Shown in pieces: positions 20,807-47,127 of a stretch of DNA of 60,724 nucleotides. Source of the DNA: Fibrobacterota bacterium. Its GTDB lineage: Bacteria; Fibrobacterota; Fibrobacteria; UBA11236. Where the stretch lies: positions 1 to 60,724 of the forward strand of contig JAHFCH010000013.1 in the NCBI GenBank assembly GCA_023249635.1. Reading direction: 5' to 3'. The position numbers and the translations under genes were made by a program. The first letter of the stretch is position 1; the number at the start of each line of letters is the position of its first letter. The notes beneath the pieces are model-generated. The model had not been told where the DNA came from. It ran no database searches and saw nothing but the letters and a program-made list of their open reading frames with translations.

Positions 20807-20921
20807 GGCTAAAAAGTCAAAGTGAAAAGTGAAAAGTGAAAAAGGCAAATTGAAGATTCATGCCCGTATTATCCTGCTTTTTCACTTTTCATTTTTAATT
20901 TTTCCCTTTTCCTTTTTAGCC
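20807..20921. repeat. Heptad inverted repeat element A (unit GTGAAAA)
   Basis: This 115-bp intergenic inverted repeat has outer arms GGCTAAAAAG (20807-20816) and CTTTTTAGCC (20912-20921), which match perfectly. Inside, each arm continues as successive 7-nt units of the type GTGAAAA, with three exact copies in the left arm and one in the right (as reverse complement), plus variants such as GGGAAAA, ATGAAAA and ATTAAAA. Both arms keep the same 7-nt register. The element lies between murA and the ParA-family gene, both on the minus strand, and begins only ten bases after the murA stop. Confidence 0.8.
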
Positions 20922-30576: not shown

Positions 30577-30692
30577 CACATCGTTTGGCGTCGGGCGCCG
30601 GGCGTCGGTCGTAAATGCGAAGAAAAATCGGTATTTTTCTTTCGCCCGACGCCTAGGCGCGCAGCGCCGTACGCCCGACGCCCGACGATGTG
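30577..30692. repeat. Heptad inverted repeat element B (unit TCGGGCG)
   Basis: This 116-bp intergenic inverted repeat has outer arms CACATCGT (30577-30584) and ACGATGTG (30685-30692) that pair exactly. Both arms then consist of 7-nt units of the form NCGGGCG: the left reads TTTGGCG, TCGGGCG, CCGGGCG, TCGGTCG. The reverse complement of the right arm begins TCGGGCG, TCGGGCG, TACGGCG and later repeats TCGGGCG. The centre folds into AAGAAAAAT / ATTTTTCTT. It lies between the 3' end of the 1,533-aa protein gene and secA, both on the minus strand. Confidence 0.8.
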
Positions 30693-39199: not shown

Positions 39200-40789
39200 T
39201 TAGTCCTTCTCCGCCGCTTGCTTCTTCTTATCCCCATTGTCCCGTATTTTCTCCTCGTGGAGCCACGTTTTGATGAGGTTGGCGATGTTGATGGGCTCGG
39301 TCCGGGTCATGAACTCCACGCGCTCCAGGATGTCCTTTTGTTTTTGGACATTTTGGGGAACTTTGTCGTCTTCCGGCTCCAAATTCAGGCCGGCGTACTT
39401 GGGCATGGGCGGGTTCATGGCCGAAGCCAGGTTCTGGACCAGGCCGCGGAAGAACCACAGGCCGAACAGGGCGATGAAGATGATGACGCCGTATTTCTTC
39501 AGCCAATCCCAGCGTTGATCCTTCTCGAGCTTCTGCATCTCCTGCTGCTCTTCAACCATGAACTGGTTGTCGAACTGCAGGTTGGTCACGAATACCTCGT
39601 CTTTGCTGCCGGGCATGAATCCCACCGCGTTCTTCACCAGGGCCGTGTACTTGTCCAGATCTTCCTGCGTGCGCGGTACGTAGTCACGCGTGCCTTCCTT
39701 GCCGGTGGGCAACTTATAGGTCCCGTCCACCGCCACCGAAACGGTGATGCGCTTGCGCGTACCGGGGGTGCTGATGATTTGGGCCATGGTCTTGTCGAAC
39801 TCGTAATTGGTGATGGAACCTTCCTTCTGCTCTGAGGAACCGGGCTCGGGGGTGCCCTTCAAGGAATTCTCGTCGCGCTGCTGGGAGCGGATGACCTTGG
39901 TATTGGGGTCGTAGGATTCCACCGTCTTGTTCACCTGGTCGAAATCCAGCTCGGCGGAAACCTTAACGCGCGCTTTGTTCGGGCCCAACAGGCCCTGGAA
40001 GATATCCTCGATCTTCCGCTCGAGATCGCGCTCCACGGAATTCTGCAGTGATTGGTTATGGTCGGTCTGCTCCGCCAGGGAATTGTCCGCGAAGCCTTTG
40101 GTTAGCATCACGCCGTGGATATCCAGAACGGTCACCTGACGGGCCTTGAGGCCTTCCACCGAGCTGGCCACCAGGTGGGTGATGCCGCGGACCTGGCGAT
40201 CGTCGATTTCCTCGCCGGGCCGTAGCTTCAGGATGACCGAGGCGGTGGCTTCTTCCTTCTTCTCCGTGAACAACGAGGGCTTGGGGATGGTGACGTGTAC
40301 GCGGGCCTTGTCCACTTCGTGCAGGCTTTCGATGGTGCGCTGCAATTCGCCTTCCAGGGCGCGGCGGTAGTTGAGGTTCTGCACGAAATCGGTCATGCCC
40401 AGGTTCAGCTTGTCGAAAATCTCGTATCCCTGACCGCCGGTCTGGGGTAGGCCCAAGCGGGCCATTTGCATACGGGCCTCATACAATTGGTCTTTGGGAA
40501 CGGTCACCTGGCGGCCGCTATTCTCCAGCTTGTAGACCACCTTCATTTCCTTCAAGGCATCGGTCACCTTGGCCGCATCCTCGGGTTCCAGGTTGATGAA
40601 GAGGGTGGAATAGCCGGAATCGGATCCCGATCCCCCGCCCGAACCTCCCGATGCCGACCAGGCGATCACCGTGATCATGCCCGCCATCACCACCGCCGAA
40701 GTCGCGACCAGGATGGCCTTCTGGGTGGCGTTCAGCTTATCCCAGATGGAGCGGAGCTGGATGATGAGTTGCTTCAGGTATTCGGACAT
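39200..40789 (-). CDS. fliF: Flagellar MS-ring protein FliF
   Basis: This 529-residue inner-membrane protein forms the MS-ring. A membrane helix near residues 24-45 is followed by the ring-building motifs (VPKDQLYEARMQMARLGLPQTG and RALEGELQRTIESLHEVDKARVHVTIP). A second helix near 440 (YGVIIFIALFGLWFF) precedes a charged C-terminus that binds FliG. The ATG has GAGG six bases upstream. It lies directly after element C, which separates it from fliE and may attenuate transcription. Confidence 0.98.
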   Translation of the reverse strand: MSEYLKQLIIQLRSIWDKLNATQKAILVATSAVVMAGMITVIAWSASGGSGGGSGSDSGYSTLFINLEPEDAAKVTDALKEMKVVYKLENSGRQVTVPKDQLYEARMQMARLGLPQTGGQGYEIFDKLNLGMTDFVQNLNYRRALEGELQRTIESLHEVDKARVHVTIPKPSLFTEKKEEATASVILKLRPGEEIDDRQVRGITHLVASSVEGLKARQVTVLDIHGVMLTKGFADNSLAEQTDHNQSLQNSVERDLERKIEDIFQGLLGPNKARVKVSAELDFDQVNKTVESYDPNTKVIRSQQRDENSLKGTPEPGSSEQKEGSITNYEFDKTMAQIISTPGTRKRITVSVAVDGTYKLPTGKEGTRDYVPRTQEDLDKYTALVKNAVGFMPGSKDEVFVTNLQFDNQFMVEEQQEMQKLEKDQRWDWLKKYGVIIFIALFGLWFFRGLVQNLASAMNPPMPKYAGLNLEPEDDKVPQNVQKQKDILERVEFMTRTEPINIANLIKTWLHEEKIRDNGDKKKQAAEKD

Positions 40790-40901
40790 TTAAGACCTCA
40801 TGCGTTCGAAAGGGCGGGACGGAAAAAAGTTCTTCAGGACTTCAAGGTGAGTGACGATGAACTGAATGGGAGAGAGTTTGCGTTTGTCATTCGTGTTGGC
40901 C

Positions 40902-40983
40902 AAAAAAAAAGGTTTAAGGTTTAAGGTCTAGGGTTTTAATTCGCGTGGGTCCTATCCCACCTTAAACCTTAGACCTTAAACCT
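40902..40983 (-). terminator. Terminator or attenuator formed by element C in the flagellar operon
   Basis: Read in the operon direction, the element C hairpin is followed at 40910-40902 by nine T residues, the layout of an intrinsic terminator. It lies between the fliE stop and fliF, so it would reduce or regulate expression of the distal genes fliF to fliJ rather than end the operon. The stem is long but imperfect. Confidence 0.65.
40910..40983. repeat. Heptad inverted repeat element C (unit AGGTYTA)
   Basis: Two arms of heptamer units face each other between fliE and fliF. The plus-strand left arm reads AGGTTTA, AGGTTTA, AGGTCTA, GGGTTTT. The reverse complement of the right arm reads AGGTTTA, AGGTCTA, AGGTTTA, AGGTGGG. 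A small inner stem GTGGG/CCCAC closes the loop. Differences between units are mostly a C/T change at one position. Confidence 0.85.
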
Positions 40984-40994
40984 CTCCCCCCGTC

Positions 40995-41312
40995 CTACCC
41001 TCTCATCCTCATCACTTCCTGATACGCTTCCATCGTCTTGTTCCTGATCTCAAGGAGCAGATTGAACGCCACCTTAGCTTCTCCGACCGCGAGCATCACC
41101 TGGTGCACGTCCTTGACCTCGCCCGAGACCATCTTTTGGATGGACTGGTCGGCCTTCTGCTGCATTTCGTTCACGTCCTTGAGGAAACCGTTGAACATAT
41201 TGCCGAAATCGGCCCCGCCCTCTTTGGGCTTGATCGACGGCTGCCCGTTGCCCGGGTTGAGCTCGACCTCCTTGGGAGGCCCGAAATTGAAGATTGGATT
41301 CACGTCGGCCAT
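40995..41312 (-). CDS. fliE: Flagellar hook-basal body protein FliE
   Basis: This 105-residue protein joins the MS-ring to the proximal rod. The C-terminal half holds the family pattern VKDVHQVMLAVGEAKVAFNLLLEIRNKTMEAYQEVMRM, and FGNMFNGFLKDVNEMQQKADQ precedes it. The ATG has GGAGAG four bases upstream. It follows flgC and orf129. Size and context are typical. Confidence 0.97.
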   Translation of the reverse strand: MADVNPIFNFGPPKEVELNPGNGQPSIKPKEGGADFGNMFNGFLKDVNEMQQKADQSIQKMVSGEVKDVHQVMLAVGEAKVAFNLLLEIRNKTMEAYQEVMRMRG

Positions 41313-41320
41313 AGTCTCTC

Positions 41321-41710
41321 CTACGCCAAAAAGTCCACGTACTGCCCGAGTCTCGGGGCAGCGTCTTGTTTCTTCGCCGAACCCGACCGGCCGTAAACGG
41401 CCGAGGGCGCGGCTGTCGAGGCCGCCTTAGCCGCGGCGCCGAAAGCGGCTGCCGCGCTCTTATTATCGGGCGTGGCGACCGGTTTCGGAGGGATGCGCTC
41501 CTCCGAAATCCGTGCCGCCACAGCGGGGGCGGCGTTTCCGCCGGCTCCCGCGGGAGCCGAAGCTCCCGTGCCCAGTTCCTTTTGCTTGCGCGCGATGACC
41601 GCGGCCCAGTCCGGCTTTTCCGGAACTTCCAGCTTCTTTTGCGCGGCATCGCGCATTTGCTGAAAGCGTGCCAGGGCCGAGCCGCCGCCGCCTATCTTGT
41701 CGAGGGCCAT
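41321..41710 (-). CDS. Unknown 129-aa protein between flgC and fliE
   Basis: A real gene by context: it starts with a GAGAAG ribosome-binding site, ends eight bases before fliE, and lies inside the basal-body operon. The first 45 residues form a charged helix (GSALARFQQMRDAAQKKLEVPEKPDWAAVIARKQKEL). The rest is Ala/Gly/Pro-rich and probably unstructured, ending LGQYVDFLA. I do not recognise a family. It could be an export-assisted linker, a hook-length or rod accessory, or a lineage-specific flagellar protein. Confidence 0.75.
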   Translation of the reverse strand: MALDKIGGGGSALARFQQMRDAAQKKLEVPEKPDWAAVIARKQKELGTGASAPAGAGGNAAPAVAARISEERIPPKPVATPDNKSAAAAFGAAAKAASTAAPSAVYGRSGSAKKQDAAPRLGQYVDFLA

Positions 41711-41750: not shown

Positions 41751-42257
41751 TCAGATATCCAAGGCCTTCATCAGCATGGTCTTGGTCGAATTCATCGCGG
41801 TGACGCTCGCTTCGTACGAGCGCGTCGCCGTAATCATGTCGGTCATTTCCTGCACTACGTTCACATTGGGCATTGCCACGTAGCCTTGCGCGTTGGCGTC
41901 CGGATGGCTCGGGTCGTATACCAGCTTGGCGGGCGTTTGATCCTGCTCGATGGACGCGATTTCCACCCCGCTCCCCACATGGTCCTTGTCCAGCGGCAGG
42001 CCCGGGGCGGGAATGGCGATATGATTCTCGTGGGTGGTGAAGCCCTGCATCTTGTCCGGCCCGAACACGAAGCGCTTCTCCGGGTCGGCGATGTTCTCGC
42101 GCAAAATTACGAACTGCCGCTTGTACGGCCCGCCTTCCTTGGTGCGCGTGGTTTCCGCGTTGGCGAGATTGCTCGAAATCACGTTCTGGCGCATGCGTTG
42201 GGCCCGCAGCGCGCTGGCGCTGATCGAGAGGCCCGAAAACATATCCATCATGCCCAT
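41751..42257 (-). CDS. flgC: Flagellar basal-body rod protein FlgC
   Basis: This 168-residue proximal rod protein carries the rod/hook signature NVISSNLANAETTRTKEGGPYKRQ, and the C-terminal helix NVNVVQEMTDMITATRSYEASVTAMNSTKTMLMKALDI closes the rod coiled coil. It follows flgB by 15 bases. The start has alternative Met codons at residues 1, 3, 4 and 6; the first is used here, with GGGGGAA upstream. Exported by the flagellar type III system. Confidence 0.97.
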   Translation of the reverse strand: MGMMDMFSGLSISASALRAQRMRQNVISSNLANAETTRTKEGGPYKRQFVILRENIADPEKRFVFGPDKMQGFTTHENHIAIPAPGLPLDKDHVGSGVEIASIEQDQTPAKLVYDPSHPDANAQGYVAMPNVNVVQEMTDMITATRSYEASVTAMNSTKTMLMKALDI

Positions 42258-42272
42258 ACGTCATTCCCCCCG

Positions 42273-42692
42273 TTAGGCCCGGCCCGTAATGGCCGACATG
42301 ATGTCGCCCTTACGTTCCTGGATGAACTTGATGCTGAACTGGTACATCAACTGGTTCTCGGCCAGCTTGGCCGCTTCCATGTCCACATCCACGTTATTGA
42401 TCTCTCCCGGCAGGGTGGTATCCTGGGCGCGGTAGGCGATGGGCTGGATTTTGTCCAAATCGGTTTTGCCGAGCTGCATATGCCCGGCCTGGTCGGAAAC
42501 CCCCGCGACCTGTTTGCCGTCCAGGGCCTTCTTGAGGCTATCCTCGAAAGCCACCTCGATGCGCTGGTACCCGGGCGTGGTGATATTGGCCAGGTTGCTC
42601 GCGATGGCGCGGCCGCGCAGCGTGCACGCGTCCAGGCTTTTCGCAGCCAGAGGTATCGAGGTTTTGGAGAACAAAGCTTCTTTGAGAAACAT
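42273..42692 (-). CDS. flgB: Flagellar basal-body rod protein FlgB
   Basis: This 139-residue rod protein is the first gene of the operon. The start at 42692 gives MFLKEALFSKTSIPLAAKSL and has AAGGA at a proper distance; a longer frame has no such site. The motif ASNLANITTPGYQR is the flagellar rod signature, and NVDVDMEAAKLAENQLMYQFSIKFIQ is the C-terminal helix. A sigma-54 promoter lies just upstream. Confidence 0.95.
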   Translation of the reverse strand: MFLKEALFSKTSIPLAAKSLDACTLRGRAIASNLANITTPGYQRIEVAFEDSLKKALDGKQVAGVSDQAGHMQLGKTDLDKIQPIAYRAQDTTLPGEINNVDVDMEAAKLAENQLMYQFSIKFIQERKGDIMSAITGRA

Positions 42693-42720
42693 GCGAGGTT
42701 TTCCTTCAGGTGGGAAAATA

Positions 42721-42736
42721 AGCAACCACCGTGCCA
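42721..42736 (-). promoter_or_regulatory. Sigma-54 (RpoN) promoter of the flagellar basal-body operon
   Basis: The minus strand reads TGGCACGGTGGTTGCT, an essentially perfect -24/-12 element (TGGCAC, five bases, TTGC). It is placed so that transcription starts about 12-18 bases before flgB. Expression would therefore need RpoN and an enhancer-binding activator of the FlrC/FleQ type encoded elsewhere. Confidence 0.88.
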
Positions 42737-42829
42737 TTCCGCCGGTAAGCCTCGAAGCCGCAATGCGGCCCGATTAAGGGGAGACCGGGGGGTAGGTAAC
42801 GGGCAGGTTGCGGCAAATTCCGGGGGTCG

Positions 42830-46980: not shown

Positions 46981-47026
46981 GGGCGGAGTTGCTCCGGTGA
47001 GCGAAACGTGTGAGAATGCCAAAGAA

Positions 47027-47118
47027 AGGTTTAAGGTCTAAGGTCTAAGGCTTAAGGGGAGGCAAGAGCCGATATGCTTGAAGTACGCATCTCCCCTTAA
47101 ACCTTAGACCTTAGACCT
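47027..47118. repeat. Heptad inverted repeat element D (unit AGGTYTA)
   Basis: The left arm reads AGGTTTA, AGGTCTA, AGGTCTA, AGGCTTA, AGGGGAG (47027-47061). The reverse complement of the right arm (47091-47118) reads AGGTCTA, AGGTCTA, AGGTTTA, AGGGGAG. The inner 28-nt arms match at 27 positions around a 29-base loop. It has the same heptamer as element C. It ends ten bases before the prepilin peptidase start codon. Confidence 0.88.
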
Positions 47119-47127
47119 CTCCAAAGT

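Follow-up and report, generated by a model that had tools for sequence, protein, structure and literature searches.

Element C, the hairpin that lies between the flagellar genes fliE and fliF, is best explained as belonging to a family of intergenic hairpins that is dispersed through the genome and specific to the species, a REP-like structure at a gene's 3′ end that is possibly a leaky terminator; we put the probability of this reading at roughly 0.6. It was preferred to a purpose-built attenuator because many near-identical copies were found in the same genome and because relatives carried hairpins with other heptads at some of these spots. The analysis started from a stretch of 60,724 nucleotides (the window) of a Fibrobacterota genome of 6.75 Mb and 95% completeness (G000), and five congeners (G001 to G005) as well as a genome from another genus of the family (G006) were used for comparison.

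Element C is an inverted repeat of tandem 7-nt units, AAGGTTT or AAGGTCT, which occupies 40910-40983 in the fliE-fliF gap. On the operon strand, which is the reverse strand, the 5′ arm of tandem heptads (AGGTTTAAGGTCTAAGGTTTAAGGT) is at 40959-40983 and the 3′ arm at 40910-40934; the arms are 25 nt each and 88% complementary, and they enclose a 24-nt loop (40935-40958) in which a short GC apical hairpin, GTGGG-ATAGGA-CCCAC, was predicted by folding to start at the arm edge. A run of nine T residues (40902-40910, A9 on the forward strand) stands directly behind the repeat arm, and the stem starts about 11 nt past the fliE stop codon. The fold on the operon strand had a z of -4.2 to -4.6, and none of 200 shuffled sequences was equally stable. 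Its best-paired register (-32.4 kcal/mol) was offset by one heptad and left UAAACC unpaired between the stem and the U-run, and the register flush with the U-run was 1.5 kcal/mol weaker (-30.9 kcal/mol). Structurally, element C has what is expected of an intrinsic terminator, a stable hairpin that runs straight into a U-run when read with the operon. The heptad motif itself was matched 10 times in the window, as compared with 0.1 expected.

The genes around element C run in one direction on the reverse strand, in the order flgB, flgC, an ORF without assignment, fliE, fliF, fliG, fliH and fliI. They were identified as flgB (42273-42692; TIGR01396), whose probable start was placed by codon score within the longest ORF (42273-42737), flgC (41751-42257; TIGR01395, E=1.2e-48), fliE (40995-41312; PF02049, E=7e-27) and fliF (39200-40789; PF01514, E=6e-66; also PF08345), the last encoding a protein 83-88% identical to FliF of named relatives, by which the genome is judged to be that of an uncultured Fibrobacterota. 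The ORF between flgC and fliE (41321-41710) had no match in Pfam or NCBIfam and a borderline codon score. A perfect sigma-54 promoter-like site (TGGCACGGTGGTTGCT, 42721-42736, reverse strand) was found upstream of flgB. The initial annotation had described a heptad hairpin followed by nine T residues, read leftward, between fliE and fliF of a sigma-54 operon; the arms with their T9, the z of the fold against shuffled sequences, the sigma-54 site and the shared direction of flgB through fliI bear this description out.

Many further copies of the repeat were found in the genome of the window, in which the heptad motif had 441 matches and the reversed motif, used as control, had 2. From 807 kb of sampled G000 stretches (L060, L062 and L093 among them), 40 AAGGTYT hairpins were catalogued; because the sampled contigs had been picked for holding matches and the genes were called with a home-made codon scorer, it is the placement of the copies and not their density that counts as a result. 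It is clear from the catalogue that 39 of the 40 copies lay at a gene's 3′ end, 28 of all copies being in codirectional and 11 in convergent gaps, and the remaining one between divergent genes. In comparison with intergenic gaps of at least 100 nt, divergent gaps were depleted for copies (P=1.7e-4) and convergent gaps were enriched (P=1.8e-4). Most of the codirectional copies started from a few to about 50 nt behind the upstream stop codon. The repeat was almost confined to these structures: in sampled G000, 184 of the 185 occurrences of AAGGTYTAAG were within the 40 hairpins, and 26 arrays with a period of 7 were counted in 446 kb, against 0-7 for each of the periods 4-6 and 8-12. A loop core (GGTCCCGTAGGCCCGGTC) was common to about a quarter to a third of the copies. 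The TTT/TCT variants agreed from arm to arm less often than by chance (58 of 101); exact pairing therefore showed no sign of compensatory selection, and compensatory pairing between the arms was rejected.

The same gap was then compared among the relatives. Heptad-repeat sequence was present in the fliE-fliF gap of all five congeners, with heptads other than those of G000, so that all six species share this site with differing heptads. A stable hairpin was retained in four of the five congeners (five of the six species when G000 is included), with z values of -4.9 in G000, -4.8 in G004, -3.0 in G003, -2.2 in G001 and -2.1 in G005. In G002 the stable hairpin was lost (z about +1.0), so that it is not essential. 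A T-run accompanied the hairpin in two species only, T9 in G000 and T6 in G004, and was absent from the other four congeners; a terminator signal was accordingly not conserved across the orthologous operons, the U-run being found in 2/6 and the hairpin in 5/6; such conservation would speak for an intrinsic terminator or attenuator but does not strictly define one. In an order-level relative the gap was 56 nt and in class-level relatives 10-12 nt, in each case without a hairpin.

The structure, the family, the placement at gene ends and the filling of this gap with differing heptads in six species are seen in the sequences, and the effect on the RNA is inferred. Copies of the heptad hairpin settle, or are kept, right behind stop codons. 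Transcribed, element C would form a long, REP-like stem just past the fliE stop, which would protect the end of the flgB-flgC-fliE message and insulate fliE from the translation of fliF. Because of the T9, leaky termination is possible at this place: the U9 run would let some RNA polymerases terminate, and element C may in this way serve, at most weakly, as a leaky internal terminator.

The copies of the family, element C included, were compared for this feature. A T-run of at least five stood behind the hairpin in 6 of 50 transcribed-side tails, the longest being that of element C, and in none of the 28 tails that codirectional copies have on their other side (p=0.06); when only codirectional copies were counted on the transcribed side, the excess was 5/28 against 0/28 (p=0.026). 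A minority of the copies, element C first, look like terminators, and most do not, as exemplified by the second AAGGTYT-family hairpin of the window (47024-47121, no strand assigned), which has no T-run. Many copies lay 20-40 nt ahead of the next start codon and are therefore too close to it to hold a full terminator together with a new promoter.

The initial annotation had gone further and proposed that element C looks like an attenuator which splits the operon into rod genes and MS-ring/export genes and could set their ratio or timing; this is supported only in part. In its strict form this would be a regulated attenuator, or a tuned internal terminator, selected at this place and setting the rod genes against fliF and the downstream export genes. 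The basal body of Salmonella contains 6 FliE, 5 FlgB and 6 FlgC as compared with 34 FliF (PMC11673145), and since more FliF is needed than FliE, FlgB or FlgC, an attenuator that lowers fliF is disfavored. What stands of the proposal is the hairpin with its U9 in the operon direction, the restriction of T-runs of at least five to the transcribed side, and the retention of heptads, mostly with a stable hairpin, in the congener gaps; furthermore, the two registers are near-degenerate and could switch, and internal terminators that set ratios within operons are known in Clostridia (PMC9045158). However, the T-run was not conserved, G002 had no stable hairpin, the repeat of element C is mostly found elsewhere without a T-run, and neither a sensor, a leader peptide nor an antiterminator was found that would point to the conditional control implied by an attenuator, so that tuned control at this site appears quite unlikely to us. 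A literature search on a fliE-fliF attenuator and on intergenic palindromes of Fibrobacter returned nothing relevant. A separate proposal, which is compatible with the preferred reading and not exclusive of it, is that of a boundary between transcription units, where the hairpin would end the flgB-flgC-fliE message and a leader block would hold a separate promoter or binding site for fliF. About 100 nt between element C and fliF were conserved across the genus (6 species) and nearly unique in the genome, and the gaps of the order- and class-level relatives (10-56 nt) lacked this stretch. Nevertheless, neither a sigma-54 site nor a sigma-70-like promoter was found when the fliE-fliF gap was searched, and the leader block had no structure; we regard such a boundary as unlikely, though somewhat less so than tuned attenuation.

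Two further explanations concern the family as a whole. Element C could be a passive mobile repeat (MITE- or REP-like) that is tolerated in intergenic DNA without any effect on expression, its T9 having arisen by chance slippage of a short T-run. In favor of such a repeat are the dispersal of the family, its presence or absence among species, as at L060:12211 where the stop and start codons overlap (TGATG) when the element is missing, the partly shared loop core and the loss of the stable hairpin in G002. It fits less well with the non-random placement behind stop codons, part of which could be explained by avoidance of promoters, with heptads in the fliE-fliF gap of six out of six species, and with the excess of T-runs on the transcribed side; it is, in our estimate, a possible but doubtful account. 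The DNA uptake sequences (DUS) of Neisseria have species dialects and are often found as inverted pairs in terminators. A signal of this kind, its heptad dialects spread by biased uptake as DUS are in Neisseriaceae, would share with our heptads the species dialects at shared sites and the inverted pairs behind genes. DUS are found on their own and within genes as well, whereas the heptad repeat is nearly confined to hairpins; in addition, two or more dialects coexist in G000 (AAGGTYT and CGGGCGT) and the heptads stand in tandem arrays. The single, genome-wide over-representation, also within genes, that characterizes an uptake word was not found, with 184 of 185 AAGGTYTAAG in hairpins, and a DNA uptake word was rejected as highly improbable.

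The stretch ahead of fliF was inspected on its own. A leader block, TTCATCG-N10-TTGAAGTC (TTCATCG...TGAAGTC; 40838-40861, reverse strand), was conserved in 6 species and is a candidate promoter, binding site or leader. Its core motif had a single further match in the genome, with shorter spacing, and a regulon motif was rejected on this ground. A structured leader was rejected likewise, as neither a consensus nor a covarying fold was obtained from the 6 species and the z of the single sequence was about +1.5.

The replacement of one heptad by another among species is the interesting part of the case. AAGGTYT had 401 matches in G000 and 0 in the five congeners, AGGGTAH had 232 in G004 and 0 elsewhere, and AAATTGM had 135 in G003, 36 in G001, 24 in G005, 21 in G002, 1 in G000 and 0 in G004; judged by these counts, these heptad types act like dialects of the species. 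Besides the fliE-fliF gap, own-dialect hairpins stood in G000 and G004 at 46981-47127 (none in G003 and G005), in G000 and G004 at L060:8480 (where G003 has a remnant with one arm and G005 has no hairpin), and in G000, G004 and G003 at L062:19721 (none in G005); G004 also carries a hairpin at about the position of L060:14969. The G000 copies at L060:12211, L062:12715, L093:7670 and L093:11039 had no heptad counterpart in those congeners with a readable gap. The five strong congener hairpins of the syntenic 60 kb all fell in the four hairpin sites of the window, a coincidence with p of about 1e-4 (permutation over 28 gaps, species kinship ignored), or p=0.018 without the fliE-fliF site (kinship again ignored); as shared ancestry lies outside the permutation model, part of the coincidence may reflect inherited sites. 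When loop k-mers of the G000 and G004 families were compared, no convincing common core was obtained, although the loops at L060:8480 look alike.

The presence of each species' own heptad at several orthologous sites implies that the species share a set of sites at which the repeat sequence has been turning over. We tentatively suggest, as a possibility well short of established, that hairpin sites behind genes are genus-wide and that the 7-nt unit was replaced genome-wide in individual species. AAGGTYT would then have taken over in G000 and AGGGTAH in G004, with AAATTGM kept in most others, and the commoner AAATTGM would have nearly vanished from both species that switched (1 match in G000, 0 in G004). 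New insertions into old hairpin sites and conversion between dispersed copies both fit such a spread. If true, the switch implies an undescribed process, either heptad copying between dispersed hairpins or the targeting of new elements into old sites. If sites persist while the repeat changes per species, the genus would provide a natural test of the homogenization of dispersed repeats, and of whether bacteria need structure rather than sequence at gene ends. The flagellar operon meanwhile serves as a warning that a hairpin with a T-run is not always a tuned attenuator.

Among known systems, the family resembles REP/BIME in being a high-copy extragenic palindrome, with many copies close behind stops, in 3′ regions and within operons; it differs in that its arms are tandem heptads and that the heptad varies by species. 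E. coli REPs at no more than 15 nt from the stop can lower translation (PMC12306157). No match to the Y1/RAYT transposase (PF01797) was found in G000 (95% complete), although the control search was positive in 5/14 genomes, and RAYT as carrier and REP/RAYT membership were rejected; the family is best read as a REP-like 3′-end hairpin without a RAYT transposase. With regard to MITEs, inverted arms and congener gaps without the element were observed, and divergence of the flanks would hide any target-site duplications. Cyanobacterial STRRs are heptanucleotide tandem repeats. The present family likewise has a tandem 7-nt unit in many copies, is largely intergenic and is limited by species, as are the TAACTGA repeat of Beggiatoaceae (PMC4679880) and the four-heptad elements of Geobacter (PMC2700814). 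For TAACTGA, direct repeats were described, most of them ahead of start codons (PMC4679880), whereas the heptads here build both arms of hairpins placed behind stop codons. The internal intrinsic terminators and SRPS stem-loops of Clostridium (PMC9045158, PMC8219983, PMC4423207) are also stem-loops after a gene within an operon, with possible control of the ratio of flanking genes; those were described operon by operon, whereas element C is one among the copies of a repeat found throughout the genome, and the T-run that it has is not conserved. The ribosome termination structure (RTS, PMC7518266) is a stable mRNA structure directly past stop codons as well, but it is a folding signal defined regardless of sequence and element C belongs to a repeat family.

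Other heptad hairpins were also recorded. CGGGCGT, the second family of G000 (274 motif matches), has a window copy at 30577-30692, and the corresponding gap of G005 contains a GC-rich heptad hairpin that differs from it. At L062:14171-14409 a CGGGCGT element was orthologous in G000 and G003, loop included, and G004 had an AGGGTAC hairpin there. The hairpin at L060:12211-12362 lies between genes whose stop and start codons overlap in G003 and G005. A third type, AAAGTGA-like, was found at 20807-20921 in a gap that lacks it in G002, G003, G004 and G005. The 10-mer GGCCATGGCC was over-represented in the sampled G000 contigs (78 against 14 expected). In G006 (L138 and L139), several heptads, namely GGTAGAC, GGAAGTC and GAAATGA, occurred in hairpins within 40 kb of one genome.
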